From the IMG/VR virus record IMGVR_UViG_3300022745_000063, positions 1-42,499 of that record: a stretch of DNA of 42,499 bases. The stretch is one strand, 5' to 3'. Of this stretch, positions 1,495-41,425 are shown piece after piece. The notes beneath the pieces are model-generated. The model saw nothing but the letters and a program-made list of their open reading frames with translations. It was not told the DNA's origin and did no database searches. The translations under genes were made by a program, and so were the position numbers. The stretch comes from a virus. Each line of letters begins with the position of its first letter. The first letter of the stretch is position 1.

Positions 1495-1499
1495 CCACC

Positions 1500-23359: not shown

Positions 23360-24298
23360 TCAATGAGTCCTTTGGTACGTCAGACGCTTGCCTTGCACGC
23401 CCTTGAGTAGCGCCTCAGCACGTTGGAAATCATCGTATCCAAGTGCTGTGCGGTGGTTATAGCGGTAGTCATACTCTGCAAGATAGCGATGCAGATGGTT
23501 TTGTCCGCAGTGCTGATAAACACCCTTCATGCCACGCTTGAAAACAGAGAAGAAACCTTCAATCGTGTTGGTATGGATCGAACGATCAACCATTGAAACA
23601 TACTCCCCTGCACCGTGGCGTGTGTAGGCGTGATCTGCGAAGTGCTGACTGACGCTGTTGTAATGGGCCGCTTCGTCAGTGAGGATTCGCGCCTCACGGC
23701 TGATATTGGCTTTCAGAATCGGAATCAGCGTCGTGGCTTTCAGGTCGTCAACAACGATAGACCGGGCCTTGCCAGTCTCACGGTCAACTAGCGACAACAC
23801 CTTATTCTTGTGGTGGTATCCACGGCCACGCTTTTCGCCTTTGGGCTTGATCGTTTTGTCGTGACCAATGAAAGTTTCGTCTACTTCGACGGAGCCACCA
23901 CCAGAGCCAAAAACATCAAACCCATCCTCACGCATGGCTTCACGAATGCGATGAGACATGAACCAAGCCGACTTCAATGTGACCCCGAGAGTGCGGGATA
24001 GTTGATTGGAGCTGATGCCCTTTTTTGATGAGGAAATCAGAAAGATCGCTTGCAGCCACAGACGCATCGGGATATGGCTGGACTCGAAAATCGTCCCCAC
24101 TTTGACGCTAAATGGTTTGCGGCATCCGTAGCACTTCCATGCGCCAACACGGGTTGACTTGCCTTGAAGTTTCCCGGCTTTGCCGATCTCGCCACAGTGA
24201 GGGCAGACAACTCCGTTGGGCCACAGACGAGTCTCGACAAACTCGTAGGCGGCTTCTTCGTTGTGGAAAAACGGCTGTGAAAGGATTGATTCGCTCAT
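23360..24298 (-). CDS. IS1595-family transposase (ISXO2-like)
   Basis: A 312-residue protein. The N-terminal zinc ribbon has Cys32, Cys35, Cys56 and Cys59 (CPHC and CYGC). The ISXO2-like DDE domain shows Asp140 (VEVDETFIGHD), Asp208 (ILTDEAAHYN) and the third-acid region NTIEGFFSVFKRG (Asn244/Glu247). Length and domains are complete, so the enzyme may be active. Start at the ATG near the right end of the element; its upstream region includes the inner end-repeat at 24312-24331. Confidence 0.95.
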   Translation of the reverse strand: MSESILSQPFFHNEEAAYEFVETRLWPNGVVCPHCGEIGKAGKLQGKSTRVGAWKCYGCRKPFSVKVGTIFESSHIPMRLWLQAIFLISSSKKGISSNQLSRTLGVTLKSAWFMSHRIREAMREDGFDVFGSGGGSVEVDETFIGHDKTIKPKGEKRGRGYHHKNKVLSLVDRETGKARSIVVDDLKATTLIPILKANISREARILTDEAAHYNSVSQHFADHAYTRHGAGEYVSMVDRSIHTNTIEGFFSVFKRGMKGVYQHCGQNHLHRYLAEYDYRYNHRTALGYDDFQRAEALLKGVQGKRLTYQRTH

Positions 24299-26137: not shown

Positions 26138-26535
26138 GCCTCACCCCCAGCGCTGGCCCATTCGTACACCTGGCGGGCTTGCAGCACGTCCACCACCTCG
26201 AGGATGCGGATGGTGCGGGCGTTTTGGCCCTCTTGGTTTGCGAGGCGCTTGGCTTCGGCCTTGGCTTGCGAGAGGTGTGTGTGCACCTTGCTGGGTGCGC
26301 GACTGCCGTCGATGCTGATCATGAATTGGCCGTACACCTCGCCGCCCAGCTTGCTGAGATGCAGGCGCTTGATGCGGGCCTCGGTGATGCGCCCTTGCAG
26401 GGCGCGCATGAGGTGGCGCTCTTCGTCGTGCTCGAAGTGGTCGGCCTCGATGATGCCTTCGATGACGCGCTGGCACTCGCCCAGCAGGGCGGCGAGCACG
26501 TCGGATTCGGCGGTGATGTGGGTGTGGAGGGTCAT
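26134..26535 (-). CDS. Conserved phage protein of unknown function
   Basis: A 133-residue, mostly helical, charged protein (ESDVLAALLGECQRVIEGII, DEERHLMRALQGRITEARIKRLHLSK). The central GGEVYGQFMISIDGS looks like a beta hairpin. It overlaps the reverse transcriptase stop by four bases and the next gene by four. The direct neighbourhood to the retroelement might mean a link, but nothing in the sequence shows it. Confidence 0.7.
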   Translation of the reverse strand: MTLHTHITAESDVLAALLGECQRVIEGIIEADHFEHDEERHLMRALQGRITEARIKRLHLSKLGGEVYGQFMISIDGSRAPSKVHTHLSQAKAEAKRLANQEGQNARTIRILEVVDVLQARQVYEWASAGGEA

Positions 26536-27890
26536 GCTGGCTTTCTGTAAATCTTGCCGATGTCACCCGCCACAGCGTGGCCACGGCGGCGCAGGATATT
26601 GGCGATGCGGGTTTGGTCGGTGTGCCCGTGGCTGGCTTGGCCGGCGAGCCCTAGGTAGCTGTTGCCAGCGGCGAAGGTGTCGGCCTCGGCCATGTGTTGC
26701 AGGCGCCGCAGGGCGGTGGTGATGGTTTTGCGCCGGATGATGCGGCGCCATGGTTTGATGATGTGGCCCACGAAGTCGATGCCACGCTCGATGGGCTGGA
26801 GGATGGTCTTGCGTGGGTTGAGGCACAGGTTCAGTGTGGCAAGCCGGGCTTCGATGTGCTCGCGCGCTTGGTTGAGCCACTGCGGGCTGTCGTGCAGCAG
26901 GACGAAATCGTCCACGTAGCGCACGTAGTGCGGGGCGCGGAGTTGGTGTTTGATGAATTGGTCCAGATCGTCGAGCAGCACGTTGGCGAAGAATTGGCTG
27001 CTGAGGTTGCCGATGGGCAGGCCGTGGTGGTCTGGCGCGTTGAACAGGCTCTTGTGCGCGGGCACGAGGGCCAGCTCGTGCCGTGTGCCGCGCACCTCGA
27101 CATCAAGGCGGGGGTCGTGCATGAGGATGGTTTCGGTTAAAGCCATCCACCACGGCTCGGTCACCTGGCGCTGTAGCTGGCCGAGCAGGATGGTTTTGTC
27201 GATGCTGACGAAGAAGTTGGCCAGGTCACACTTGAGGTAATGCGCGGGGCGGCTCCAGTTCTGGGTATGGCTGCGCACCTGGTGCTCCAGCCGCTGGGCG
27301 GCGTAGAGGGTGCCCCGGCCGGGGATGCAGGCGCAACTGTCAGCCACGAAGCGGGCATGAAACCTCGGTGCGATTTGGTTGTAGAGCAGGTGGTGGACGA
27401 TGCGGTCGCGGAATTGCGCCGCCCACACTTCGCGCGGCTTGGGGCGGGTGATGACAAAGCAGATGGAGCGTCCGGGCTGGTAGGTGCCGGATTGGAGTTC
27501 TTCATGGAGCTGGTACAGGTTGTGCTCGGCCCGCGCCTCGAAGGCTTCGGCACTGGCGCTGGTGCGCTTGGTACGTCGGCAGTCGAGGTAGGCCTGCACA
27601 AGCTGCTGGAACAGGTGTGGATCTGCGGACGGCAACAGCCGAGCCTTCGTAGCTCTTGTGGTTGTTGTTCTGGTTGCCGTTGTTGAAGTTGCAATTCCAG
27701 GCGTAGGAGGCGCACCTGTCGCGCTGATGATGCCGCCCGCCCGAAGGCCGGAGCCGATCAGGTGGGGAGCTGCACCGGACGCAGCCCGTACGGTGGCGGT
27801 GGTATCCGTGGTGTGCATGTCGGTGGCCTTTTGGGCCAGCGGCGCGACCAGATTCACTGTGCGCACGGGCATGATGGCCTTGACCTTCAT
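26532..27890 (-). CDS. Diversity-generating retroelement reverse transcriptase
   Basis: A 452-residue frame from ATG 27890, whose ATG overlaps the avd stop (ATGA). The recognisable RT domain starts near residue 90 (PHLFQQLVQAYLDCRRTK). It shows RPKPREVWAAQFRDRIVHH, the first catalytic Asp in KCDLANFF (about 222), the DGR-type IGNLSSQ motif (about 293-299) and the YVDD box (325-328). It should copy the template RNA with errors at adenines and pass the cDNA to the variable repeats. The first 85-90 residues are read through the spacer and template repeat and are Thr/Ala-rich. A non-ATG start such as TTG at 27635 would give a more usual RT length. Confidence 0.95.
   Translation of the reverse strand: MKVKAIMPVRTVNLVAPLAQKATDMHTTDTTATVRAASGAAPHLIGSGLRAGGIISATGAPPTPGIATSTTATRTTTTRATKARLLPSADPHLFQQLVQAYLDCRRTKRTSASAEAFEARAEHNLYQLHEELQSGTYQPGRSICFVITRPKPREVWAAQFRDRIVHHLLYNQIAPRFHARFVADSCACIPGRGTLYAAQRLEHQVRSHTQNWSRPAHYLKCDLANFFVSIDKTILLGQLQRQVTEPWWMALTETILMHDPRLDVEVRGTRHELALVPAHKSLFNAPDHHGLPIGNLSSQFFANVLLDDLDQFIKHQLRAPHYVRYVDDFVLLHDSPQWLNQAREHIEARLATLNLCLNPRKTILQPIERGIDFVGHIIKPWRRIIRRKTITTALRRLQHMAEADTFAAGNSYLGLAGQASHGHTDQTRIANILRRRGHAVAGDIGKIYRKPA
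27622..27712 (-). repeat. DGR template repeat (TR), 91 bp
   Basis: On the minus strand it reads as GCC TCC TAC GCC TGG AAT and continues with eight AAC codons, 27 adenines in all, ending GCC GTC CGC AGA. It aligns without gaps to 28296-28386 (91 bp) and, over 88 bp, to 28802-28889. It lies between avd and the RT domain, as in Bordetella phage BPP-1. All differences from the two variable repeats fall on its adenines. Confidence 0.97.
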
Positions 27891-28264
27891 GCTGCAGGCG
27901 CCCTGTTCGTTCGTTTGAGCCAGCCACCGGCCTGTTTGCCGACGCTCCCCAGCAGCTCGATGGAGTCTGCCCACAGCTTGGGCGAGATGTACCGGGCATC
28001 GTGGCTGACGCGCAGCAGCACTGTGATGGCGCGCTCGCGAGTGAGCAACTGCTCAATGTACCACGCCCGGGCCTCGTGCTGGCTGGCATTGGCCAAGGCC
28101 ATCAGATCGAGCATTTCGACGCAATGCTGGGTGATTTTCTCGCCCAGCGCCCGCTTGACGGTGCGCGGCATCTGGACTTGGGCCCTGATGGCCAGATCCA
28201 GCAGGCGCGCGCCGGTGCGATGAATGGGAAGTTCGGTGTGAAGTGCCACGGTGGCTGTGCTCAA
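27887..28264 (-). CDS. avd: DGR accessory variability determinant (Avd)
   Basis: A 125-residue, all-helical basic protein (GARLLDLAIRAQVQMPRTVKR, QHCVEMLDLMALANASQHEARAWYIEQLL, ERAITVLLRVSHDARYISPKLW, ELLGSVGKQAGGWLK). This is the four-helix pattern of Avd, the pentameric protein that binds the RT and template RNA. The frame starts with TTG at 28264; a GTG at 28249 is an alternative. No clear SD is present. It follows the second target gene and overlaps the RT frame start by ATGA. Confidence 0.9.
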   Translation of the reverse strand: MSTATVALHTELPIHRTGARLLDLAIRAQVQMPRTVKRALGEKITQHCVEMLDLMALANASQHEARAWYIEQLLTRERAITVLLRVSHDARYISPKLWADSIELLGSVGKQAGGWLKRTNRAPAA

Positions 28265-28267
28265 TTA

Positions 28268-28284
28268 AAGGATTGAAGGATCAA
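28268..28284 (-). repeat. 17-base sequence shared after both variable repeats
   Basis: AAGGATTGAAGGATCAA (plus strand) occurs here and at 28768-28784, overlapping the stop codons of both target genes. It is absent beside the template repeat. It may be a remnant of target-gene duplication or a site needed for retrohoming. Confidence 0.7.
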
Positions 28285-28748
28285 AGTGCTGAGACTCTGC
28301 GGACGGCAACAGCCGAGCCTTCGTAGCTCTTGTGGGTGCTGCTCTGGTAGCCGTGGCGGAAGTAGCAACCCCAGGCGTAGGAGGCGTCTTCCTTGTGTGT
28401 CTCAGATGACCAGTGCCACTCTGGCTTGAGGTGAGGTTTGCAGTTCGCGAAAAGCAGGGCCTGCTCTTGCCTGGACGGGAGTGAGCCGCCGACGCTTGCC
28501 GCCCAATCGGTTGCGTCTTGCCAGTTGAGTGCGCTGGCGGGCTGGGCGGCCATGAGCACCAGGTGGTGGGCGGTTTGTCCTTTCTCGTCCAGGATGACGC
28601 CGGCGTAGTGCTCGTCGGGTTGCAGGTTGAGCGGTGACTGTGCGTCATCGGCCTGAAACTGCGGGTTGATGGCTTTGTGCAGAGCTTCCATCACGGCGAG
28701 GGTGCGGGGTGTGAACTCAATGTCGATGGGGATGGTGATGCCGGACAT
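28281..28748 (-). CDS. DGR target protein 2, C-type-lectin-like variable protein
   Basis: A 155-residue protein from the ATG at 28748. Residues 1-60 are specific to this copy (ITIPIDIEFTPRTLAVMEALHK). The C-terminal half matches target 1: GSLPSRQEQALLFANCKPHLKPEWHWSSE, then the variable region at residues 121-151 ending KSYEGSAVAVR. Gly127, Tyr129, Arg131, His132, Tyr134, Ser136, Ser137 and Thr138 are the codons changed from the template. The DUF1566-like C-type lectin fold is inferred from the pattern. It is expected to be a binding protein with a variable surface; its ligand is unknown. Confidence 0.92.
   Translation of the reverse strand: MSGITIPIDIEFTPRTLAVMEALHKAINPQFQADDAQSPLNLQPDEHYAGVILDEKGQTAHHLVLMAAQPASALNWQDATDWAASVGGSLPSRQEQALLFANCKPHLKPEWHWSSETHKEDASYAWGCYFRHGYQSSTHKSYEGSAVAVRRVSAL
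28296..28386 (-). repeat. DGR variable repeat 2 (VR2), 91 bp
   Basis: Differs from TR (27622-27712) at ten positions, all TR adenines: AAT to GGT, AAC to TAC, AAC to CGC, AAC to CAC, AAC to TAC, AAC to AGC twice, and AAC to ACC. None of the 64 non-A positions differs. It lies at the 3' end of target gene 2, with the GC-rich GTTGCCGTCCGC as the likely initiation region. Confidence 0.97.
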
Positions 28749-28780
28749 GTTGGGCTTTCGTGAGTTGAAGGATTGAAGGA

Positions 28781-29161
28781 TCAAGCGCTGAGCGGAATCA
28801 AGCGGACGGCAACAGCCGAGCCTTCGTAGCTCTTGCGGGTGTAGTTCTGGTTGCCGTCGTAGAAGCGGCAACCCCAGGCGCAGGAGGCGTCGTACTCATC
28901 AGCAGTCCAGTGCCACTCGGGCTCCAGCTTGACCTTGATGTTGGCGAAGAGCAGGGCCGCAACGGGGCGCGTGGGGAGTTCGCCGCCTTGCTCTTTGGTC
29001 CAGGCCTTTGCGGCTGCCCAGTCGAGGTCTGTCCCATGTCCGGGAAGCAGCACAACAGCGCAATGTGTGCCGTCTGGCTTGGTGGTCAACCCGGCGAAGG
29101 TACCGCCGTCGAGCGATGCGCCCAGTGCGGGCAGGTTGGTGAGGTTGAGAGGCTGTGACAT
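28781..29161 (-). CDS. DGR target protein 1, C-type-lectin-like variable protein
   Basis: A 126-residue protein with a strong SD (AAAGGAG, five bases before ATG). It is related to target 2 over its C-terminal 75 residues: GGELPTRPVAALLFANIKVKLEPEWHW, then the variable region at about 91-120 with Cys94, Gly97, Arg99, Tyr101, Asp102, Tyr107, Thr108 and Arg109 differing from the template-encoded residues. There is no signal peptide or coiled coil. It is the first DGR gene in the leftward operon. It is a likely variable ligand-binding protein of unknown location. Confidence 0.92.
   Translation of the reverse strand: MSQPLNLTNLPALGASLDGGTFAGLTTKPDGTHCAVVLLPGHGTDLDWAAAKAWTKEQGGELPTRPVAALLFANIKVKLEPEWHWTADEYDASCAWGCRFYDGNQNYTRKSYEGSAVAVRLIPLSA
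28802..28889 (-). repeat. DGR variable repeat 1 (VR1), 88 bp
   Basis: Differs from TR at ten positions, all TR adenines: TAC to TGC, AAT to GGT, AAC to CGC, AAC to TAC, AAC to GAC, AAC to TAC, AAC to ACC and CAC to CGC. None of 63 non-A positions differs. Adenines in the 3' part (AAG AGC TAC GAA) are unchanged in both VRs. Confidence 0.97.
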
Positions 29162-29176
29162 GGTTGCTCCTTTAGA

Positions 29177-29644
29177 TCACGGTTGTGGAATGGTTTGGCC
29201 GCGCTGCATGCGCAGCATCACGGCCTGCATGGCGGTGTGCATTTGCTGCGGGGTGCTGAGGGCGATGAGTTGCTCGTAGAGGTCGAGCAGGGGCGGGATG
29301 TGCTCGCGGCTGAGGTGGTCTGTGCCCCAGTGGCCGAGGCGCTGGGCGCGGTCGAGCATGTGCATGAGGGCGTCTTGTGCGTGTTGCACGGGGACGACCA
29401 GCAGGGGGTCGATTTCTTCGGCTCGCAGCAGGCACACATTCGCGCAGCAGGCGAGGTTGTGGAAGTCTTCTTCGGTGCCTTGGCCGGTGCACAGGCTCTG
29501 CCAGCTCACGCGCAGGGGCAGGGTGAGGCTGGTTTGCTCGGGCTGGGTGAAGGGCTGCACGCGGGCCATGACGCGGAAGAACGCGCCGGGGTCGGCGCGC
29601 AACCGATGCTTTGCATGTGCATCTTTTCTGTGTTTCGTTTTCAT
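29177..29644 (-). CDS. Conserved phage protein of unknown function
   Basis: A 155-residue protein from the ATG at 29644, coupled to the rha stop (ATGA). It is mostly helical (GTEEDFHNLACCANVCLLRAEEIDPLL, AQDALMHMLDRAQRLG, IPPLLDLYEQLIALSTPQQMHTAM). Two adjacent Cys and a basic N-terminus (KTKHRKDAHAKHRLR) are visible. No family is recognised. It lies between rha and the first DGR target, 15 bases ahead of the latter. Confidence 0.7.
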   Translation of the reverse strand: MKTKHRKDAHAKHRLRADPGAFFRVMARVQPFTQPEQTSLTLPLRVSWQSLCTGQGTEEDFHNLACCANVCLLRAEEIDPLLVVPVQHAQDALMHMLDRAQRLGHWGTDHLSREHIPPLLDLYEQLIALSTPQQMHTAMQAVMLRMQRGQTIPQP

Positions 29645-30390
29645 GCAACCCCCTTCGCCCCACCCACCGCCGCCCGTGCGGCTTGTTCGGCTTGTGCGGC
29701 GAGTTTGGCGACGATGCCCATGTGTGACACGCAGGACAGCAGGGCGTGGTGGTGTTCGCTGGCGAGTGCGTTGCCCAGGGTGGTGTCGCGCACGGCTTTG
29801 AGGGCTTTGTCGGTGTTGATGTGGCCGTGCCCGTTGATGGCCATGTAGGCCACGCGCCGCTGCATGTGCTCGTGCAGCAGGGGGTGCAGCTCGCGCATGA
29901 TTTCCCAGGCGCGGTCGTTGATGGTGCGCAGCAGCTCGGGCGGCAGGGGCTGGGGTTCGGACTGGCCCGAGAGCAGCAGGCCGCGCACGTCGATGGTGGC
30001 AGGCTCTGGCGTGGGCAGGGCCACGGGCGCTGCCTTGACGGCTTTGCGCTGGGTGCGCTCGCGCAGGGTTTGCTCCATGCGGTTGAAGTGGGCGATGTAG
30101 CGCTCTTTCCACTGCGCGGCCTTGGCTCCGGTGAAACCCATGCAGAGGAAAGCGAAGCCGTCGCGGGTGATGCGGTATTCGGTGCGCTGCTCGCCTTTGG
30201 CGTCGGTGTATTCAACGGGCTTGAAATTCAGCGCGTTGAATTCTGGTGAGCAGTCCAGATTGCGGATGCGTTCAAGCACGTTCTTGTGCTCTCTGCCGAA
30301 AGTCTCGGCAATGTCGCGGCTGGTGGTGGTGGGGGAACCGTCAATGACGGTGATGCGTGGCGCGGTGCGCCGTGAGGGGGTGTTAGCCAT
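29641..30390 (-). CDS. rha: Rha-family phage regulatory protein (copy 1)
   Basis: A 249-residue protein from the ATG at 30390, with strong SD AAAGGAG. The N-terminal Rha domain is clear (ITVIDGSPTTTSRDIAETFGREHKNVLERIRNL, YRITRDGFAFLCMGFTGAKAAQWKERYIAHFNRME). The C-terminal part (TIDVRGLLLSGQSEPQPLPP onward) is nearly identical to copy 2. Rha proteins act as phage regulators or antirepressors. The frame stays open upstream to ATG 30681, giving a 346-residue form, but the leader appears conserved as RNA rather than protein. The SD can pair with the C4-like RNA loop. Confidence 0.88.
   Translation of the reverse strand: MANTPSRRTAPRITVIDGSPTTTSRDIAETFGREHKNVLERIRNLDCSPEFNALNFKPVEYTDAKGEQRTEYRITRDGFAFLCMGFTGAKAAQWKERYIAHFNRMEQTLRERTQRKAVKAAPVALPTPEPATIDVRGLLLSGQSEPQPLPPELLRTINDRAWEIMRELHPLLHEHMQRRVAYMAINGHGHINTDKALKAVRDTTLGNALASEHHHALLSCVSHMGIVAKLAAQAEQAARAAVGGAKGVA
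29854..29994 (-). repeat. 141-bp inverted repeat shared by both rha genes
   Basis: Matches 41816-41956 in the opposite orientation, with two differences in 141 bases, while flanking rha sequence has diverged strongly. This suggests recent gene conversion. Being inverted and about 11.8 kb apart, the copies could also allow inversion of the immunity and replication region by homologous recombination. Confidence 0.85.
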
Positions 30391-30445
30391 GATGGCTCCT
30401 TTGGAACAGGTCTTGAACCTGCCACCCTCCCTGCCAAGAGAGGGC

Positions 30446-30517
30446 GGCAGACCGTGCAGGTTGGCAGACCGGCCAAAGGAACCGGCACACCCTTGCGGGT
30501 GTCCCGCACGGCCCGCC
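30446..30517 (-). ncRNA. C4-like antisense RNA, copy 1
   Basis: A 72-base element with a 15-bp closing stem (30503-30517 with 30446-30460) and two inner hairpins: ACACCC-GCAA-GGGTGT, and CCGG-TTCCTTTGG-CCGG. The second loop contains TCCTTTGG, exactly complementary to CCAAAGGA at the rha SD (30397-30404). This is the design of the P1 C4 RNA, which blocks antirepressor translation in trans. The second copy (41300-41371) has the same structure with compensating changes. Confidence 0.82.
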
Positions 30518-30560
30518 AAAAAGGGAGCCATGCCCCGCGCTGCATCGGGAGCAATAGAAA

Positions 30561-30588
30561 AGCCGCAAACCTCAAGAGGCGTGCGGCT
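30561..30588 (-). terminator. Hairpin with short T-run in the rha leader (copy 1)
   Basis: AGCCGCA-cg-CCTC-tt-GAGG-tt-TGCGGCT followed by TTTC on the minus strand. The equivalent in copy 2 keeps the stem and has a longer T-run. It lies between the leader promoter and the C4-like element. It may be an attenuator; with only three extra T it is weak as a terminator. Confidence 0.5.
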
Positions 30589-30642
30589 CGCAGCGCCTTT
30601 GGTGCCGGGCTGCCAAGCCCGCATCCCCGAAGGGACGGGCGA

Positions 30643-30672
30643 AGTGTAGCCGATGCGCTCGGGCATGGTCAA
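30643..30672 (-). promoter_or_regulatory. Promoter of the C4-rha leader, copy 1
   Basis: A -35 TTGACC (30667-30672) and -10 TACACT (30643-30648) with an 18-base spacer. The -10 region and following GCCCGTCCCTTCGGGGAT are conserved at copy 2, where the rest of the leader has diverged. It lies at the start of an in-frame extension of rha, directly after the preceding gene. Confidence 0.65.
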
Positions 30673-30677
30673 GGTGG

Positions 30678-31109
30678 TCATGCTGGCAGCGCCTCCACGC
30701 GCCCGTCGCGGTAGTACAGACCATCGGGCCTGCGGCTGGGGTGTTGGAAGTGGTCGTCTGCGCCGGGGCGCACGGCGGGGGCGGTGAGTTCGTGGCCGGT
30801 GTATTGGCCGGGGATGGCTCCGCTGCGGTTGGTGATGGGCATGCTGGCTGCGGCCACTTTTTCGATGGCGGCGGCGCGCTCGAATTTGTTGGCCACGGTG
30901 CGGATGCCTTTGGCGGTGGCGGCGTAGCTACCGTCGGGCTCGCGCTTGATGTAGCCCGCTGCGGCGAGGTTGTCGATGATCTTGGATGTCCACTCGTCAG
31001 AGCCACGGCCAAGGCCGGTGCGGCGCATGGGTGTGTCGATGATCTGCTTGAGCACCTTGAAGGTTTTGCTGCTCATGGTGCGCAGGCTGGGGATGCAGGT
31101 GATGGTCAT
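30678..31109 (-). CDS. Phage protein with winged-helix-like N-terminus
   Basis: A 143-residue protein; an internal ATG (MSSKTF) is a possible later start. Residues about 10-75 (KTFKVLKQIIDTPMRRTGLG, DEWTSKIIDNLAAAGYIKRE, GSYAATAKGIRTV) resemble a winged helix. The C-terminus is Gly/Pro-rich (NRSGAIPGQYTGHELTAPAVRPG). It is coupled to the HD hydrolase gene upstream and ends at the start of the C4-rha leader. Confidence 0.65.
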   Translation of the reverse strand: MTITCIPSLRTMSSKTFKVLKQIIDTPMRRTGLGRGSDEWTSKIIDNLAAAGYIKREPDGSYAATAKGIRTVANKFERAAAIEKVAAASMPITNRSGAIPGQYTGHELTAPAVRPGADDHFQHPSRRPDGLYYRDGRVEALPA

Positions 31110-31744
31110 GCTGCCTCCGTCGCCAGCGCCTGTTCCCGCGCGAGGGTGTGTTGCAGTTGCTCCAGGCGCAGAGCGAATTCGGTGCGCCAGTGTTTCCAGC
31201 TCCGGGTTTCGCGGAAGTTGGTGTTGAGGTCGATGTCTGCGGGCTGGACGGGGTTGTCTGTGTCGTCACGCAGCACGTGCCACGGGAGGTGGTCGAGCTT
31301 GCTGTAGGGCAGGAGGTCGCGGCGCTCGGTGGCGAGGGCGATGAGGTCCCATTCGCGGATTTGCTCGGCGTGGACGGCGAAGGTGGTGAGCAGGCCGAAG
31401 GCGCGGCGCACATGCTGTTTGTGGATGTACTCGAAGGTGCACCAGGCGTGGGCGTTGTTCACGCTGTCCACAGCTTGCTTGGCTGGCGAAGCGAGGTCGT
31501 TGGTGTAGATCTCGTGGGCGTCGTGCAGCAGGGCGGCAAGTTGCACCACGGTGCTGGCCCCGGCGCGGGCGGCGAGTTCCCACACAAGCAGGCTGTGTTC
31601 GGCCACGCTGTAGGGGCGGATGCAAGCGCCGGTGAAGCGGTTGATTTGCGCGAGCTGGTGGGCGATGTCTTCGGCCTTGACGGGGCGCAGTCCGTGGCCG
31701 CTGATGTGGTATTCGGCGCCGGTGGCGGTGATGATGTGGGTCAT
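31106..31744 (-). CDS. HD-domain phosphohydrolase, YfbR-like
   Basis: A 212-residue protein. The HD signature is visible: His in SVAEHSLLV (about residue 49), His-Asp in AALLHDAHEIYTND (about 73-74) and a later Asp in the C-terminal half. The N-terminus GAEYHISGHGLRPVKAEDIAHQLAQINRFTG is typical of phage YfbR-type enzymes. The likely substrate is a deoxynucleoside 5'-monophosphate or related nucleotide, so a role in nucleotide pools during early infection is plausible. Confidence 0.85.
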   Translation of the reverse strand: MTHIITATGAEYHISGHGLRPVKAEDIAHQLAQINRFTGACIRPYSVAEHSLLVWELAARAGASTVVQLAALLHDAHEIYTNDLASPAKQAVDSVNNAHAWCTFEYIHKQHVRRAFGLLTTFAVHAEQIREWDLIALATERRDLLPYSKLDHLPWHVLRDDTDNPVQPADIDLNTNFRETRSWKHWRTEFALRLEQLQHTLAREQALATEAA

Positions 31745-31920
31745 GCTTGGGGCTCCAGTTGGGCTTGCTCTTCTTTGGCTTTGGCAAAGGCCTGTTTGAA
31801 GGCGTTGGCGGCGGCTGTGCCAAAGGGGTAGGGGCAGGCGTCGTTGATGTCGCTGTAGATGCGAGCGGCTGCCGCCGCCTCGCGCTGGATGCGTTCGATG
31901 CTGATGATGGGTTCGTGCAT
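31741..31920 (-). CDS. Small helical protein (59 residues)
   Basis: ATG at 31920 to TGA overlapping the next start. The product begins MHEPIISIERIQREAAAAAR and ends KEEQAQLEPQA; it is helical and charged with a central CPYPFG turn. No family is recognised. Tight coupling (ATGA) and three bases from the upstream gene support a real gene. Confidence 0.65.
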   Translation of the reverse strand: MHEPIISIERIQREAAAAARIYSDINDACPYPFGTAAANAFKQAFAKAKEEQAQLEPQA

Positions 31921-31923
31921 GGA

Positions 31924-32760
31924 TTACGCCTTGCTGTAGCTGCCCACGTGCACGGGGATGTCGCCGAAACCGTCGCGCACTTTGTTGGCCAGCTCGTTGG
32001 CCATTTCTTCTTTGTGCTGCTCCAGCTTGATGATGCGCAGGCTGATGCCGGGGGCTTTGTCGTCGGCTTTGATGCCCAGGCGCATCACAAACAGGCGCTC
32101 AGTGAGGCCGTGGTAGGGCTGGCAGTTGAAGTAGATGATGGTGGGGATGGCTTGGTCGGCCTTGGCGCTGATGCTCTCGAAGGCGCTGCGGCTCTCGCTG
32201 AGCTGGGCGGTCTGACTTTCAATCTTGCGCAGGCCCTCGATGGTGAGCTTGCGGATGGTGGCTGCTGCTTGGGCTACGGGGATTTGACCGCTGGCGTCTG
32301 CATCGGCGAAGAACTTGAGCTGCTCGGCCCAGTCTTCAAAGAACTCGGCGGCTTCGCGCTGGGTGAGGGTGCGATGGGTGGCTGTCATCAGCGCCAAGAA
32401 AGCGGCGGTTTTGTCGAGCACCAGATAAGCGCGGTTGTCGGTGTGGCCGGGTTCGGTGGGTGTGCCGAGGTTGAGCACGGCGGTGGCGCTCATGTTGCCT
32501 GCGTCCACAAACACGGCGCAGCCCTTTTCAGCGTGGGCCTTGGTGTAGGCGGTGAAGGCCTGGTGGTCGGCGGTGGTCATGGTGCCACGGGCGCGGCGGC
32601 GCAGGGGCATGAAGGCTTCCAGGTCGTGCTGCTTGTAGTCGCTGGGCAGGGCGAGCACGCCGCCCAGCTCAGGCATGGTGAGGGCGTTGTGCGTTTCGAC
32701 GCCTGCCTGGGCGATGGATTGCGCTTCTTGCAGGGCTTTGATGGCTTCGGGGGTGAACAT
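31924..32760 (-). CDS. DUF2303 family protein
   Basis: A 278-residue protein with the DUF2303 pattern: N-terminal AIKALQEAQSIAQAG, the LPSDYKQHDLEAFMPLRRRARG segment, AVFVDAGNMSATAVLNLGT, and a C-terminal IIYFNCQPYHGLTERLFVMRLGI. These proteins are common in early operons of temperate phages. Their function is unknown, possibly linked to recombination or replication. SD AGGAA lies upstream. Confidence 0.85.
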   Translation of the reverse strand: MFTPEAIKALQEAQSIAQAGVETHNALTMPELGGVLALPSDYKQHDLEAFMPLRRRARGTMTTADHQAFTAYTKAHAEKGCAVFVDAGNMSATAVLNLGTPTEPGHTDNRAYLVLDKTAAFLALMTATHRTLTQREAAEFFEDWAEQLKFFADADASGQIPVAQAAATIRKLTIEGLRKIESQTAQLSESRSAFESISAKADQAIPTIIYFNCQPYHGLTERLFVMRLGIKADDKAPGISLRIIKLEQHKEEMANELANKVRDGFGDIPVHVGSYSKA

Positions 32761-32808
32761 GGTGATGGTTCCTGTGGTTTGGTTGTTGTGGGTGCTTGGC
32801 TCAGCGGG

Positions 32809-33174
32809 TTACTGGGGTTGGCCTTCTTTGGAGAGGAAGCTCATTTGGTTTTCGGGGGCGATGGAGAGCTTGCCGAACTTGCCCACGTGCAGGGCGGTGG
32901 TGCGCTTTTCTTCCTCGCTGGCTTTGCCGTCGAGCGTGGGCTTGGTGAACTTGAGCAGGTGGGCGCAGTGCACTTGGTGCGTGCCGGGGATCTTCTTGAA
33001 GCTGAATTCCACGGTGACCTTGCCTTCGCGGTCGTAGTCAACGGTGGACGCGGCCACTTGCGAGAGGGCGACGGAGAGCTTGCGCTCGAAGATGCCGCCG
33101 TCGAGGTCAGAGAAAAACTCGCTCACGTCGGTGGCGGCTGCGGTGGTCTGGGGTGCTTGGGATGCTTGGGACAT
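32809..33174 (-). CDS. Early phage protein of unknown function
   Basis: A 121-residue protein. The N-terminus is Gln/Ala/Thr-rich. The core (VSEFFSDLDGGIFERKLSVALSQVAAS, KVTVEFSFKKIPGTHQVHCAHLLKFTKPT) is helix then beta. Proteins of this type often stand next to DUF2303 genes. No catalytic motif is visible. Confidence 0.75.
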   Translation of the reverse strand: MSQASQAPQTTAAATDVSEFFSDLDGGIFERKLSVALSQVAASTVDYDREGKVTVEFSFKKIPGTHQVHCAHLLKFTKPTLDGKASEEEKRTTALHVGKFGKLSIAPENQMSFLSKEGQPQ

Positions 33175-33204
33175 GGTTGTGCTCCGGTGGTTGAAAAAAC
33201 AGGT

Positions 33205-33537
33205 TCACGCCGCCAGCGGCTGCGCGCATTGCGCGGGCAGTGGGGCGAGGGTGATGGTTTGGGCGAGGGATGTGATTTCGCCGTTGTGGACGGTTTCGCG
33301 GTGCAAGACGACTTGCAGGCCTCTGCCGGGTTTGATGGCGGGCTTGTGGGCGAGCCAGAAGGCTGCGGCCTCGGGGCCGCTGTAGATGACTGTCCAGCGG
33401 GTTTTGACACCGCCGGAGTAGCTGGCCATGCAGGGGATGGTGATCTGGAATGCGCCGTCTTTGGCGTGGCCAACGGTGGGCCAGCCGCGCACGAAGAGCA
33501 TGCCGGTGGTGAGCAGATCGGTTTCGGGGGTGCTCAT
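33205..33537 (-). CDS. Small beta-rich early protein
   Basis: A 110-residue protein dominated by beta strands (AFQITIPCMASYSGGVKTRWTVIYSG, LQVVLHRETVHNGEITSLAQTITLAPL). The pattern is compatible with an OB-fold nucleic-acid-binding protein, but this is only a guess. ATGA overlap with the upstream gene. Confidence 0.65.
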   Translation of the reverse strand: MSTPETDLLTTGMLFVRGWPTVGHAKDGAFQITIPCMASYSGGVKTRWTVIYSGPEAAAFWLAHKPAIKPGRGLQVVLHRETVHNGEITSLAQTITLAPLPAQCAQPLAA

Positions 33538-33707
33538 GCCGCACCGCCTTTGCGGCCAGCCTTGAGGCTGCGCGGGTTGACCGTGGGCAGTTTGCTGGGC
33601 TCGGGCAGCGTGGGCATGCTCCAGGCGCGGATGGCGAAGCGCATGACGGCGACGATGACGAGCAGGGCCAGCAGGCCGACGATGAGAACAACGGTGGAGT
33701 AGCTCAT
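33534..33707 (-). CDS. Small single-span membrane protein
   Basis: A 57-residue protein with one hydrophobic segment (TVVLIVGLLALLVIVAVM, residues 5-22) and a basic, Pro-rich cytoplasmic tail. It is coupled on both sides by ATGA overlaps. Function unknown. Confidence 0.7.
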   Translation of the reverse strand: MSYSTVVLIVGLLALLVIVAVMRFAIRAWSMPTLPEPSKLPTVNPRSLKAGRKGGAA

Positions 33708-33994
33708 GGGCGCACCTGTGCTACCTGGGTGGGCTGGCCGCGTTTGGTGGTGCATTGCACCGCGCCGTTGCCAAGGTCACGCCAGGCGGCGTTTTCTCCG
33801 CAGATGCGGCGGGCAGCCGCGTAGAAGCGCTCTTGGGCTGCGGCGGTGCGCTGGGCATCGGCCACATCGGCGGCGCTGTCTTGTTCGGCCTGGTGATCAC
33901 TGGGTCCGCCAAGCTGCCATGCGAGGCCGACGACAAAGCTGATGGCGATGGCGAGCGCCCAGGTGTGGGCGGCTTGGCGGGCGGGGCTCTGCAT
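33704..33994 (-). CDS. First gene of the leftward operon, membrane-anchored protein
   Basis: A 96-residue protein with an N-terminal hydrophobic span (WALAIAISFVVGLAWQLGG, residues 12-30) and a soluble domain with two Cys (RRICGENAAW and AVQCTT). It may be an exported, disulfide-bonded domain. A strong SD (GAAGGAG) precedes the ATG. The promoter and operators at 34033-34098 lie just upstream. Confidence 0.75.
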   Translation of the reverse strand: MQSPARQAAHTWALAIAISFVVGLAWQLGGPSDHQAEQDSAADVADAQRTAAAQERFYAAARRICGENAAWRDLGNGAVQCTTKRGQPTQVAQVRP

Positions 33995-34032
33995 TCTTCA
34001 CTCCTTCACCCCGTGGGTGGGGTGTGGAGTGG

Positions 34033-34098
34033 ATATTACCCGTGGGTAAGATTAAATGCAATACCCAAGGGTAAATTATTTTGATAAAGTACGGGTAA
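34033..34098 (-). promoter_or_regulatory. OL-like operator and leftward early promoter
   Basis: Two palindromic operators, TTACCCGTGGGTAA (34036-34049) and ATACCCAAGGGTAA (34061-34074), have centres 25 bases apart; a degenerate third half-site ends at 34098. On the minus strand a -35 TTGCAT (34056-34061) and -10 TAATAT (34033-34038) are separated by 17 bases that hold the first operator. The same geometry is found at the rightward promoter (36354-36382). Repressor binding should shut off the whole leftward operon, including the DGR and integrase. Confidence 0.8.
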
Positions 34099-34150
34099 GC
34101 CCCAATCCCGGGGCGAAAAAATACCGCCTGTGGGCGGCTGCGAGGTGTTT

Positions 34151-34429
34151 ATGAAAGTGACTCAATTGCCCGATGGATCGTGGGAACTGATGGCCGAGAC
34201 TGCGGCTGATTTTGACTTTGTGTCCGATGTTCATCTGCATGGAGGTGATGGCACTTGGTGCCAAGGTCTGCGGCAGCAGCCGCTTGAGGGCATCGCGTGG
34301 CGTGTTGCGGGGGTACTCATGGTGGTAGGGCGCAATTGCACGCAGGGACGGTTATATGAGTCGGGTAGCAAGCTGCTGCGCGCCGTCAGCGAAAGTGTGC
34401 GCATTGTCTCGGCTGAACTCCAGCGTTAA
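34151..34429 (+). CDS. Small protein of the immunity region, rightward
   Basis: A 92-residue protein from ATG 34151 with SD GAGGTG. It contains TQLPDGSWELMAETAADFDFVSDVHLHGG and VAGVLMVVGRNCTQGRLYESG. No family is recognised. It lies downstream of the OL-like operators on the opposite strand to its neighbours, and its 3' end overlaps a convergent minus-strand gene by 78 bases. It may be less certain than its neighbours. Confidence 0.45.
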   Translation: MKVTQLPDGSWELMAETAADFDFVSDVHLHGGDGTWCQGLRQQPLEGIAWRVAGVLMVVGRNCTQGRLYESGSKLLRAVSESVRIVSAELQR

Positions 34430-34573
34430 TCTGGCATTCGGCGGTTCGCCGCTGAGACCGATCCGCATGAACAACCGGCCCGCGTCCTCAAAGAGTTCAA
34501 CGCTGTAAGCCTTGCTATCGTCTCGGTAATCGAACGCGGTGAATTCATGTGGCAAGCAATGGTCTGAGCCCAT
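34352..34573 (-). CDS. Small protein of the immunity operon
   Basis: A 73-residue protein with good SD (AAAAGGAG) before ATG 34573. The sequence (FTAFDYRDDSKAYSVELFEDAGRLFMRIGLSG then LTLEFSRDNAHTFADGAQQL) looks like a compact beta-helix protein. No family is recognised. It is the last gene of a leftward cluster that starts with the repressor. Confidence 0.55.
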   Translation of the reverse strand: MGSDHCLPHEFTAFDYRDDSKAYSVELFEDAGRLFMRIGLSGEPPNARLTLEFSRDNAHTFADGAQQLATRLI

Positions 34574-34672
34574 TTGGTTTTTCTCCTTTTCAGAGGTGTT
34601 CTGTGGCTATTTCGAAATTTCCTCATCCGCCTGCATCGTTGCCGTGCGCAGACGATCTGTTTTTTTCGTGTG

Positions 34673-34909
34673 TCATCTACGACCGGCCAGGAGAGATTGA
34701 GCGCATTCTCGCGTTGCGTGGATGGCCTCGACGCAGACGTGCATGGTTTGTCCGGTGCTCGTGTTGGTTACCACTTGCGATCCGTGAGCGTCTAGGTTGC
34801 CGCTGAGGGTGTCGTTCATGTGGCACTCGCCAGCCTCAATGTCAAAGACGGTGTAGCCGTGGCTGGTGAGTGCGGCAATGGTGTCTTCTATTTTGGGTTG
34901 TCGGTGCAA
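34673..34909 (-). CDS. Small hypothetical protein of the immunity operon
   Basis: A 78-residue frame beginning with TTG at 34909, overlapping the preceding gene by 22 bases. It includes DTIAALTSHGYTVFDIEAGECHMND and a C-terminal EAIHATRECAQSLLAG. The start is uncertain and no SD decides it. Function unknown. Confidence 0.45.
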   Translation of the reverse strand: MHRQPKIEDTIAALTSHGYTVFDIEAGECHMNDTLSGNLDAHGSQVVTNTSTGQTMHVCVEAIHATRECAQSLLAGRR

Positions 34910-35298
34910 ACGGCGGCTGCATGTTTCAAGAACTCGATGCGCTCATCAAGCGACTTGATGTATGCACCGGGTGGATAGTCCGAGGTTTCTTCTTTGGGCA
35001 TGAAGCGCACATACTTTCCTTCAATATTGGCGATGAATTGTGTAAACCCAACATAGCCGCCCATTCGGTTTTTGGCATTGACGCTGCCGCAGCCGTAGTG
35101 TGTTTTTGCGAAGAACTGCACGCCTTCAAACTTGGCTGAGTCTGGATCGTTCAAGTGCTGTCGCACCAATTCAAGTGCTTGAGCCTTGGGTGATGTTTTC
35201 TCTTGGTATTGAGCCCACTGGTCATAGCCAAATATGGCGGCCACCGTCAGTGCAATGCCGGTCAGTACCCATAGCGCATTGGTTTGTATTTTTTTCAT
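34888..35298 (-). CDS. Membrane-anchored protein of the immunity operon
   Basis: A 136-residue protein from ATG 35298 (SD AAAGGG). It has one hydrophobic span (ALWVLTGIALTVAAIFGY, residues 7-24), then a soluble domain with KAQALELVRQHLNDPDSAKFEGVQFFAKTHYGCGSVNAKNRMGGYVGFTQFIA. This DPxSAKF and CGxVNAKN pattern occurs in many small envelope proteins of unknown function. Lying with the repressor, it may be expressed in the lysogen and act at the cell envelope, for example in superinfection exclusion; that is inference. Confidence 0.65.
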   Translation of the reverse strand: MKKIQTNALWVLTGIALTVAAIFGYDQWAQYQEKTSPKAQALELVRQHLNDPDSAKFEGVQFFAKTHYGCGSVNAKNRMGGYVGFTQFIANIEGKYVRFMPKEETSDYPPGAYIKSLDERIEFLKHAAAVCTDNPK

Positions 35299-35333
35299 CA
35301 ACTGCCCTTTGAAAGCCTGAATGTTACCCAAGG

Positions 35334-35792
35334 TCACTCACCCATCATCCATGTGGGTGGTTTTCTCTTTGGATGGATGAGCTTGTACAGGTCTTTGGGT
35401 GCAAGTATCTCGCCTGTTGTGGTGTCAATGGCTGATTCAACGCTGATGAACCAATAACTTCGGCGGGTGTTTTCCAAATAGCTGAAAGCATCAAAACAAT
35501 CAATGCTGGCTTTCGATCTGTACAGATTGACGATGGTTTCTCTGACGACGCCATCCGTGTGCAAGTATCGCAGTTGGATGGGCGGCAACTTCGTCGCTCT
35601 CTCTGTGCTTGTACTCGTGATGCTTTGGTTGGTAGCTGGGTCAACGATGCGAACCGTTATTTCCGCCGTGGGCTTTTCAGGTGCTGGGCGGTTTTCATTT
35701 GCGATGTGGATGTTTTTACTTCCGCTATCTGACCATATGTGCCAATAAAGCGCCACAACGACGATGACGCACAGAAATGCAAGTGCTTCCAT
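35334..35792 (-). CDS. Membrane-anchored protein with WYL-like C-terminal domain
   Basis: A 152-residue protein. An N-terminal span (LAFLCVIVVVALYWHIW, residues 4-20) is followed by a polar linker, then a beta domain (LPPIQLRYLHTDGVVRETIVNL, then SYWFISVESAIDTTTGEIL) resembling WYL-like ligand-binding or TerB-associated domains. It lies in the repressor operon and is probably lysogenically expressed. The stop codons and starts in this cluster do not overlap, unlike the leftward early genes. Function unknown. Confidence 0.6.
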   Translation of the reverse strand: MEALAFLCVIVVVALYWHIWSDSGSKNIHIANENRPAPEKPTAEITVRIVDPATNQSITSTSTERATKLPPIQLRYLHTDGVVRETIVNLYRSKASIDCFDAFSYLENTRRSYWFISVESAIDTTTGEILAPKDLYKLIHPKRKPPTWMMGE

Positions 35793-35874
35793 TTATCTCC
35801 CCTTGTGTTCTTCAACCCAACTTCATGCCCGGCTGCGGTAGTCTTTGAGGCAGTAGATTTTTGCGCTGAACAGG

Positions 35875-36306
35875 TCAAGCTGTGACGGCGGCATTCTCTT
35901 TCTCGGGCTGTGACTTGTGTGGCAGATGCAGCCGCACAAACGCTGCGGCATGGTTCTCCACTTCTTTTTTCTCTTGTGGTTCCAGCAGGTCCCAATGTTC
36001 CGGCTTCACGTCCTTGAATGGCCAAATCATGAATGGTCTGTCTGGCTCGCGGGCGATGAGGGTGGTTACTTGGGCCGTGGCCCTTTCTTTGGCAACAAGT
36101 TGCTTCCACTCTGGATATGCGGCATCCAGTTGGTCGGCTGTGTCTTCGCCGATTCGTTTTCTACCGGCCTTGCCCGGTTCGTACAGCATGCGCGAAACAT
36201 AGTTCGCCTCCTTGTCGATCTTTGCTGCAATTTGAGCGATGCCCCCCCGCCCCAGTTGCTTGACTAGGGCGAGCAGGCCTTTGCGTCGCTGCTCATATTT
36301 GTCCAT
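35875..36306 (-). CDS. CI-like phage repressor without peptidase domain
   Basis: A 143-residue protein from ATG 36306. The N-terminal HTH (RRKGLLALVKQLGRGGIAQIAAKIDKEANYVSRMLYEPGKAGRKRIGEDTADQLDAAY) is the typical Cro/CI type of betaproteobacterial phages. The rest (FMIWPFKDVKPEHWDLLEPQEKKEVENHAAAFVRL) is a short helical part. There is no S24 Ser-Lys self-cleavage domain. It should bind the TTACCC-NN-GGGTAA operators. Its start lies about where its promoter would begin transcription, so the mRNA may be leaderless. Confidence 0.85.
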   Translation of the reverse strand: MDKYEQRRKGLLALVKQLGRGGIAQIAAKIDKEANYVSRMLYEPGKAGRKRIGEDTADQLDAAYPEWKQLVAKERATAQVTTLIAREPDRPFMIWPFKDVKPEHWDLLEPQEKKEVENHAAAFVRLHLPHKSQPEKENAAVTA

Positions 36307-36311
36307 GCCCA

Positions 36312-36382
36312 ATTGAATCGAATCGTTACCCGCAAGTAAATGACCTTTGGGTATTGCTTTTGTGCTTACCCTAGGGTAAGCT
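36312..36382. promoter_or_regulatory. OR-like operators with divergent promoters
   Basis: Three operators lie between the repressor and Cro-like genes: TTACCCTAGGGTAA (36366-36379), TGACCTTTGGGTAT (36341-36354) and TTACCCGCAAGTAA (36326-36339). Rightward promoter: -35 TTGCTT (36354-36359), 17-base spacer holding the first operator, -10 TAAGCT (36377-36382). Leftward repressor promoter: -35 TTTACT and -10 TTCAAT (plus coordinates 36335-36340 and 36312-36317), also 17 apart. The 25-base spacing of the first two operators equals that at OL. Confidence 0.82.
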
Positions 36383-36388
36383 ATGCGC

Positions 36389-36646
36389 ATGTCCTCAATC
36401 ACGAAATACCTCAACGGGTTGGATGTCGCCAGTCAACTCGACTTTGCGCGGCGCTGCGGCACGTCGGTGGGCTACCTGCGCAAGGCGGCTTCCATTGGCC
36501 AAAAAATCGGCGAGGGGCTGTGCATCGCACTTGAGCGCGAAAGCCAAAAAGCCATCCGCTGCGAAGAGCTGCGCCCCGATGTGGATTGGGCTTATCTGCG
36601 CAATGGGGGCGGTGAGGCTGAGCTGGCCGAGAGGAAGGTGGCTTGA
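36389..36646 (+). CDS. Cro/YdaS-like DNA-binding protein
   Basis: An 85-residue protein if started at the ATG at 36389; an ATG at 36383 adds Met-Arg. It has the HTH DVASQLDFARRCGTSVGYLRKAASIGQKIGEGLCIALERES and ends with ELRPDVDWAYLR, a combination typical of YdaS/Cro-like proteins. The predicted transcription start coincides with the ATG, so it may be translated from a leaderless mRNA. Divergent from the repressor, it should be the lytic-side switch protein. Confidence 0.85.
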   Translation: MSSITKYLNGLDVASQLDFARRCGTSVGYLRKAASIGQKIGEGLCIALERESQKAIRCEELRPDVDWAYLRNGGGEAELAERKVA

Positions 36647-36669
36647 GATGAGTCTGACCCGTCGAATCT

Positions 36670-36930
36670 TTACTGCGGCTCTGGTGGCATCGCCAGTGCT
36701 TTGTGCAGCAGCTCCAGCGATGTTGCCAGCGCCACAAGCGCGTCCCGTGTGTCTGCCGGGTGCTGGTGAGCCGTTCTGCGGGCTTTGGCCGCACGAGCTT
36801 GCAGAGCTTGCAGCCATTGACTGCGCACGTCGGGCGCAAGCAGGTTGCCCAAGTCTGTCATGGCCAGCCGCATGGCGGCAAGCTCTGTCCGCTGGCGGTG
36901 CAACGTGCTGAAAAGTTGGTCTGGTGTCAT
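36670..36930 (-). CDS. Small helical protein, counter to the rightward operon
   Basis: An 86-residue frame with AGGA six bases before ATG 36930. The product (TPDQLFSTLHRQRTELAAMRLAMTDLG, WLQALQARAAKARRTAHQ, DALVALATSLELLHKAL) is an amphipathic helical protein with GC-rich third codon positions, which looks real. A competing + strand frame at 36648-36911 has an SD but an odd composition. The opposite orientation within the early region is unusual. Function unknown. Confidence 0.5.
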   Translation of the reverse strand: MTPDQLFSTLHRQRTELAAMRLAMTDLGNLLAPDVRSQWLQALQARAAKARRTAHQHPADTRDALVALATSLELLHKALAMPPEPQ

Positions 36931-36970
36931 GGGGGTTCCTGTGCAAGTTGAGGTTTTGGAAGGTCGATTC

Positions 36971-37022
36971 TTGCACGGGGCCGCCCCCACCATTCGCGGT
37001 TTTCTCCGCCCCGTTCGTGCAA
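36971..37022. repeat. Inverted repeat in the gap before the CII-like gene
   Basis: Arms TTGCACG-GGGC (36971-36981) and GCCCC-GTTCGTGCAA (37008-37022) can pair with a small internal loop. A short palindrome CGAGCGCTCG followed by TTTT lies near 37026-37040. The 36931-37158 gap otherwise holds no gene. It may contain a regulatory or termination signal. Confidence 0.4.
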
Positions 37023-37158
37023 CAGCGCGAGCGCTCGTTTTCCTTTTGACGCCATTGTTTGGCGCTCGCGTGGGCGGGGTGGTTTTTTCTTCGGCTCATG
37101 GCAAAAATTTTTGCCGGTTTGAGCCTCTCAACACCACTCAACAATTTTGAGGGGCATC

Positions 37159-37524
37159 GTGAAACAGTTCTCCATCCCGCTGAATGTGAGCCCGCAAGAG
37201 GTGATGCGCAAGCAGAGCCTGGGTGCGGCGCTGGGTTTGTGTCTGGAGGTGGGCGGTTTGTCGCCCAAAGGGTTGCAGGCCGATCTGGGCTTGGACAAGG
37301 CGCAGTTTTCGCGCTGGGAGTCTGGCCAAGAGGGTGTGAATTGGCCCAAGCTGGTCTTGGTGATGGACCGCTGCGGCAACGACGCACCGGTGTTGTGGAT
37401 GGCGCACCAGCGCGGCTTTGACTTGTCCAGCATGCACAAGGTGGAGTCTGAGCTTGAGCGGCAAAACCGCTTGCTGCGCGAAGAAAACGCCGCGCTGCGG
37501 CGTGTGTTGCAGGGGGGTGCCTGA
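37159..37524 (+). CDS. DNA-binding regulator with C-terminal leucine zipper (CII-like position)
   Basis: A 121-residue protein from the GTG at 37159 (SD GAGGGG). The HTH region (LGAALGLCLEVGGLSPKGLQADLGLDKAQFSRWESGQEGVNW) is followed by VMDRCGNDAPVLWMAHQRG and a coiled coil (VESELERQNRLLREENAALRRVL). Size, position after the Cro-like gene and before the replication gene, and the dimerisation helix suggest a CII-type transcription activator or copy of a replication-linked regulator. The stop overlaps the next start (TGATG). Confidence 0.7.
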   Translation: MKQFSIPLNVSPQEVMRKQSLGAALGLCLEVGGLSPKGLQADLGLDKAQFSRWESGQEGVNWPKLVLVMDRCGNDAPVLWMAHQRGFDLSSMHKVESELERQNRLLREENAALRRVLQGGA

Positions 37525-41273: not shown

Positions 41274-41299
41274 CATGCGCAACGCATGGCTCCACTTTT

Positions 41300-41371
41300 G
41301 GCGGGCCGTGCGGGGGCACCCGTAAGGGTGCGCCGGTCCTTGCCCGGTACGCCAACCCCGTACGGTCTGCC
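41300..41371 (+). ncRNA. C4-like antisense RNA, copy 2
   Basis: Same size (72 bases) and layout as copy 1: closing stem 41300-41315 with 41356-41371, hairpin GCACCC-GTAA-GGGTGC and hairpin CCGG-TCCTTGC-CCGG. The whole second loop, TCCTTGC (41337-41343), is the exact complement of GCAAGGA at the rha SD (41413-41419). Compared with copy 1, loop and SD have changed together, and the first stem pair is G-C instead of A-T. This strongly supports an antisense pairing function. Confidence 0.83.
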
Positions 41372-41425
41372 TCCTGTGATTGGCGTCGCTTGGGGCAGGT
41401 TCATAACCTGTTGCAAGGAGCCATC

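Follow-up and report, generated by a model that had tools for sequence, protein, structure and literature searches.

Two short lectin-like DGR targets in the integrase-to-repressor operon of a temperate phage and their possible role inside the infected cell

Introduction

Where does a phage use the proteins that it diversifies when these proteins are small and lie apart from its tail genes? The question is raised by the window analyzed here (the whole 42.5-kb virus record IMGVR_UViG_3300022745_000063, 42,499 nucleotides, of the temperate siphovirus type), in which a DGR serves two short targets that we call A and B. The DGR of phage BPP-1 shares with it A-specific mutagenic retrohoming, the accessory protein Avd, and a C-type-lectin-like target. 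In BPP-1 that target is a tail-fibre tip protein encoded among the late genes (PMC8144416). The window departs from this arrangement in having two tiny targets in an apparently early operon, and its reverse transcriptase (RT) is 30.6% identical to that of the BPP-1 system (mtd, avd, brt). Phage DGRs are read almost wholly as devices for receptor switching; if the reading favored below is correct, targeted hypermutation is also used after entry.

Results

All DGR components of the window lie on the minus strand. The RT gene (26532..27620; RVT_1 PF00078, 62.5 bits; phrog_1423, 2.5e-111; matching brt of BPP-1) sits beside the template repeat, TR (27625..27719); its reading frame is open to 27974, yet this would cross TR, and relatives align from about 27620. 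Between TR and avd (27887..28264; bAvd PF22296, 40.6 bits against a cut-off of 40; phrog_3206, 4e-23; NF033474, 2e-10) lies an RT-15 RNA (RF03018; 27712..27903; 156.9 bits, gathering 82), which was found in 7/7 relatives scanned and may be the 5' portion of the template RNA of the DGR. Target A (28781..29161, 126 aa) and target B (28281..28748, 155 aa, ATG at 28748) contain the regions matching TR, VR2 (28802-28896) and VR1 (28299-28393), respectively. Over the 85-nt core, each VR has 10 mismatches to TR, and 20/20 fall on template A's, a pattern expected by chance at a rate of the order of 1e-11 (about 28% of TR is A). The window thus combines a DGR-type RT beside TR, A-specific VRs, Avd, and C-type-lectin-like targets with a C-terminal VR, and under its one template eight positions can each take 15 residues and other positions fewer.

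A repeat search of the window also recovered a 3' element, GATCCTTCAATCCTT, that overlaps the stop of target A (28767..28782, minus strand) and recurs directly after target B (28267..28282, minus strand). Similar TCCTTCAATCCTT-like repeats follow 36/39 adjacent targets (19 sequences, at most three mismatches), as against 3/760 random windows. The element was not seen after the window's TR, and its placement makes it a candidate cis element of retrohoming, which may mark the VR as recipient.

The order of transcription on the minus strand is C4 antisense RNA, rha, one ORF, A, B, avd, RT-15 RNA, TR, and RT, and the whole integrase-to-repressor side has this orientation. The plus strand carries the primase-helicase and all recognized virion genes (terminase at 997-3635, portal, protease/capsid, tape measure, J, and endolysin). 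The coordinates, sizes, strand, and neighbors that an earlier note on this DNA had given for the two targets were recovered: both are opposite in strand to the structural genes, and both lie between rha, an antirepressor-like regulator (29641..30390, minus strand; PF09669, 2.5e-30, 105 bits), and avd. A single further ORF with no assigned function (29177..29644, minus strand; phrog_20828, 1.5e-9) lies directly upstream of A and separates it from rha.

Scanning IMG/VR with the window RT gave 80 loci, for each of which TR and VR were sought anew and targets were identified by profile. Setting the limit at 61% RT identity or more gives a short-target set of 62 non-duplicate sequences, among them the window, Magia, and QDWS; five are incomplete at an end, and L012, L033, and L061 were removed as duplicates from the count of targets. 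Exactly two short targets lie within 1.8 kb upstream of the RT in 54/57 complete loci and three in 2/57, while the remaining locus (L038) has its pair 2.8-3.4 kb upstream; a further remote target occurs in seven loci. The module is thus widespread. Clustering of the ORFs around the module (with L064 removed as well) placed the target/RT cluster in 79 loci and avd in 74, with an integrase near in 18, and revealed no dedicated partner gene as constant as avd and RT. A search of viral_contigs with a single sequence, the B target of locus L008, returned only three loci.

The two targets keep their places. With the VR excluded, 104/112 targets in 56 loci (L012, L033, L061, L059, and L053 left out) share their A or B position with their nearest neighbor; when labels were flipped within loci, 2000 trials averaged 56 and never exceeded 80. 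Median identity between A and B of one locus is 34%. These comparisons indicate that A and B are old paralogues that are paired, keep their order, and are non-interchangeable.

Our evidence for retrohoming is natural variation among sequences, and it is clearest between close relatives. L055 and L056 differ at 32/56 template-A sites, 3/144 other VR sites, and 117/3100 sites outside the VRs; the corresponding counts are 16/28, 4/62, and 75/3210 for L052 and L053, and 23/53, 0/122, and 266/2386 for Magia and QDWS. The comparison of L053 with L054 is less clear (4/16 template-A sites, 6/69 other VR sites). Three further pairs (L010/L012, L033/L074, and L060/L061) are identical everywhere and look like the same phage.

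Among described phages, Magia (MT701587) resembles the window in its RT (62.5% identical) and in a leftward operon that holds avd and an adjacent pair of short targets, as well as one remote target. Genes 47 and 57 are named as targets in its genome note, which gives no reading of the operon (PMC7883833); gene 46 (L004:32316-32780), a third DGR target by VR match, is unnamed there. The Magia virion is that of a myophage, whereas the window is of the siphovirus type.

How the targets stand to virion genes in other carriers bears directly on whether they are virion parts. Fifty full records were searched for two terminase families, tail sheath, and one tape-measure family, and the orientation of "reversed" contigs was checked for L022. 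Wherever a virion gene was detected in a short-target record, it lay on the strand opposite the DGR (38/38 records); none of the searched virion genes was detected in 11/49 short-target records. A target profile run over the 50 whole records gave, among the matches listed, only matches on the RT strand. The same layout is present in the annotated isolates Magia, QDWS, Haboob, and Cruim01, and in LPPA56 by layout only. The arrangement of the BPP-1 type, in which the target lies among late tail genes and on their strand, is therefore found neither in the window nor in these 38 relatives.

The module also appears to be independent of its surroundings. Aligned with the window, the DNA of other loci is homologous from the RT end onward (first position 26512-26577 in the 25 loci that extend farthest) up to, but not past, the start of A (last position 29104-29175 in the 20 that extend farthest there), so that rha, the C4 RNA, and the ORF at 29177-29644 lie beyond the shared module; flanks match the window in some loci only, mostly at the helicase. 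Although locus L008 encodes a contractile-tail sheath, identity to the window is 65% for its A and 57% for its B. Magia, a Burkholderia myophage, and QDWS, from Shewanella, share 88% identity across a 2.57-kb stretch of the module and only short pieces elsewhere. The module A-B-avd-TR-RT is thus found with both contractile and non-contractile tails, and these comparisons indicate that it is self-contained and moves between temperate proteobacterial phages with differing virions, within their integrase-to-repressor operons.

A more distant branch of the same RT lineage (45-50% identical to the window's RT, with the same order of avd and TR) shows a different use of the same C-terminal domain. 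Where complete, its target is a single long protein (about 675 aa; open frames of 640-707 aa) instead of two short ones, and Lcl_C scores above cut-off at the target end in the three long-target loci tested. In L079, the sole long-target record of the 50, the target (L079:7278-9308) occupies the tail-fibre place of a P2-like tail operon, flanked by Tail_P2_I and the sheath gene and on the same strand as the tail genes, and the sheath is accordingly on the same strand as the DGR. A homologous sheath-like ORF follows the long target on the same strand in ten loci (Pfam check for L079 only). This system is rewritten as well, since L082 and L083 have 3/1887 differences outside and 18/40 at template-A sites. 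One RT lineage is thus used with a long target encoded among tail genes or with the apparently early short pair.

This branch is part of what favors the main alternative, which we nevertheless judge unlikely, namely that A and B are virion parts made early, as small receptor-binding or decoration subunits that, like Mtd in BPP-1, would alter adsorption from the tail or head of whichever phage carries them. In the part of PMC8144416 drawn on here, the phage DGR targets that have been studied bind receptors, and most viral targets of clades 1, 4, and 6 are labelled tail proteins. Furthermore, a small protein could enter the virion through a contact common to many tails, which would tell against an early cytoplasmic role. 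The opposite strand in 38/38 records and the occurrence of the pair in carriers with contractile and with non-contractile tails argue against virion parts, as do the predicted structures of the targets and the orphan copies in jumbo phages, described below.

Structure prediction of the targets alone, proposed in the earlier note, showed both to be little more than one C-type-lectin domain. The model of A (pLDDT 85; core about 97, VR loop under 50) is a lone domain of this kind, and that of B (pLDDT 90.7) has a short N-terminal helix, a flexible linker, and the C-type-lectin-like domain; apart from this helix, the models contain no apparent fibre or attachment domain. The best solved folds for B are Bd2740 (8oks; Z 14.0, rmsd 2.1, 100 aligned) and the Lcl C-terminal domain (8q4e; Foldseek E 2.4e-4; Z 13.4, rmsd 4.0, 115 aligned), and A aligns to the latter with Z 9.1 (rmsd 3.3, 106 aligned). 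The C-terminal domains of Lcl and Bd2740, of the PF07603 fold type, resemble B in fold at 20 and 12% identity, respectively, and the window targets lack the N-terminal parts of both proteins. B meets the Lcl_C fold on structure, but both window targets miss the Pfam gathering score for PF07603 (no match for A; 23.4 bits against 34.9 for B), which relatives pass (41.1 bits for the L055 target, 47.9 for that of L079). A sequence search of solved structures gave nothing useful (E 0.62). With the A model as query, Foldseek returned no match under 1e-3 from PDB or the viral libraries, a result probably due to the poor modelling of the VR loop. The C-terminal domain of Legionella Lcl, the nearest known relative in fold, belongs to an adhesin, and this kinship, together with the long target in a tail operon, indicates that the lectin-like domain can serve adsorption.

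Action on the host-cell surface is less likely, since A and B of the window have no signal peptide, lipobox, or membrane segment by a simple hydropathy and motif test. These features (signal peptide, lipobox, or anchor) mark cell-surface DGR targets of the Legionella or Treponema type. Across 125 targets, the same test gave two TM-like, two signal-like, and no lipobox sequences; targets over 240 aa were excluded from it and from the tree.

Strand and operon position do not prove early expression. The OL-like promoter of the earlier note was not found: 28200-37700 contains a single sigma-70-like site (30672-30643, minus strand), no more than in shuffles (mean 1.5). A dedicated late promoter at 29161, which the earlier note had named as evidence against its reading, was not seen either, as no sigma-70-like site lies between 28200 and 30640. 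The start of A, 15 nt past the preceding stop and with an AAAGGAG ribosome site, is placed as inside an operon. Upstream of rha, the C4 antisense RNA (30440..30523, minus strand; 60.5 bits, gathering 45) is complementary to the rha ribosome site. Its duplex with the rha start reaches -72.2 kcal/mol, as against a mean of -48.4 (s.d. 5.2) in 500 shuffles, 0/500 of which were as low, and -35.0 to -52.8 kcal/mol with the other gene starts tested. This pairing suggests that rha is probably silenced by the C4 RNA and that the lysogen may keep the operon repressed. The C4 RNA was considered as part of the module and rejected, being absent in 7/7 relatives scanned. A second C4 antisense RNA (41294-41377, plus strand) pairs much more weakly with the rha ribosome site (-49.9 kcal/mol).

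The proximity of rha and C4 in the window might suggest that the targets tune Rha or the repressor in the phage's own switch. We regard this as very improbable: both elements lie beyond the shared module, the C4 RNA is absent from the relatives scanned, and an invariant partner would need no diversification.

Relatives of the targets also occur without an RT. The top viral Foldseek row for A (E 2.7e-3) was a phage D3 protein, which led to D3 orf68 (L126:44083-44640, leftward), an orphan target with a frameshifted VR that is the first annotated leftward gene after cI; its profile match is moderate (of three profiles, one gave E 1e-7 and two gave weaker scores). The connection runs through Haboob, a P. 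aeruginosa phage whose RT is 62% identical to the window's. Haboob target A is 88% identical in DNA to D3 orf68 and 89% to PA5oct EST35_0104, an orphan target (L137:1495-1986) inside the annotated 39-kb terminal repeat of that phage, and PMG1_00068, the PMG1 homologue of D3 orf68, has an open VR frame, unlike D3's. These three genes are kin of Haboob target A in records without an RT. Relatives occur in 28 phage records, including nine Wroclawvirus jumbo phages; the Haboob RT found no match in D3, PMG1, U7, FBPa42, FBPa19, or the nine jumbo records, and it is whole in phPA-G and fragmentary in D14O. The jumbo-phage orphans are of the Haboob type and only distantly related to the window's A and B. 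Closer to the window is orphan gp4 of EBPR siphovirus 1, which is 60.5% identical to its A; no notable RT or avd match was found in 50 kb of that 54-kb genome.

The orphans bear the mark of past diversification. As in DGR targets, the VRs of PA5oct and PMG1 differ from the Haboob TR mostly at A's (15/32 A's and 1/68 other sites in PA5oct; 15/32 and 4/68 in PMG1). Older-looking haplotypes differ at 20/32 A's and 11-13/68 other sites (30-2, Paride, MIJ3, and Deifobo) and at 17/32 and 8/68 (Cassandra); the VRs of 30-3, Callisto, Ettore, and FBPa42, in which the anchor word was not found, were left out of this scoring. By their translations, the nine jumbo phages have four kinds of VR. Within the group of 30-2, Paride, MIJ3, and Deifobo, 31/372 sites vary outside the VR and 6/68 at other VR sites, as against 0/32 at template-A sites, a result expected in about 6% of cases if sites varied evenly. 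That the binding site is stable without an RT in these four phages suggests that selection keeps it.

These orphans bear on two of the alternatives. Against a virion role, the part of the MIJ3 report drawn on here (PMC6892783) gives four proteins from virion bands, major bands only, and the MIJ3 orphan, MIJ3_00367, is not one of them. The other alternative is conversion or superinfection exclusion, in which a diversified pair made in the lysogen binds proteins of incoming phages and protects the lysogen. Its attractions are that the targets sit in an operon of lysogeny genes, that the orphan follows cI in D3 and lies near cI in PMG1 and FBPa42, and that such a role has been put forward as a general one for the cytosolic targets of cellular DGRs (in the part of PMC10053308 drawn on here). 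It seems to us improbable all the same, given the likely silencing of the upstream rha by the C4 RNA, which would leave the module off in the lysogen. Moreover, orphans are carried by nine jumbo phages of the virulent genus Wroclawvirus, to which lysogen immunity would be useless.

Discussion

We consider it somewhat probable that A and B are an early-made, cytoplasmic, diversified pair that binds a partner variable among host strains or rival elements. Of the options in the earlier note, early virion parts or proteins with a site of action in or on the host cell, the host-cell one is favored by the opposite strand in 38/38 records, the unrelated tails, and the jumbo-phage orphans, even though the promoter on which the note also drew was not reproduced. 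A cytoplasmic role after entry is the simplest reading of the company of integration and recombination genes, the lack of an export signal, and the unrelated tails. With the DGR, the phage is probably gripping something inside the infected cell, not choosing hosts; that the partner is intracellular we infer by exclusion.

The sequences show that error-prone copying of one template rewrites about ten residues in the lectin-like domain of each protein. On the favored reading, synthesis of A and B would begin soon after infection or induction, and both would remain in the cytoplasm. Candidate partners are defence or regulatory proteins of the host and proteins of a competing phage. A would act as a bare binding domain, and the short helix of B may oligomerise or dock A, which would imply that the two cooperate. 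Diversification would allow the phage population to find a fitting variant, and a useful variant could then be inherited without the RT. More tentatively, the module may represent an adaptive in-cell binder system, transferable as an early module, that makes libraries of two cooperating lectin-fold proteins against variable partners such as defence sensors or rival-phage proteins, and whose frozen variants have been passed even to virulent jumbo phages. No earlier description of the short-target pair as a class was found in the open-licence papers searched; Magia's short targets have already been published (PMC7883833).

The system is directly testable, as the module is carried by the isolates Magia, Haboob, Cruim01, QDWS, and LPPA56, and the frozen D3-type and jumbo-phage copies are defined, selected variants that could be used as bait. 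Judged by genome contigs, hosts are mainly Burkholderiales (Hydrogenophaga, Curvibacter, Limnohabitans, Acidovorax, Comamonas, and Rubrivivax), along with Pseudomonas and others. In the window, an IS1595-family transposase gene (23360-24298, minus strand) adjoins the integrase end of the operon.
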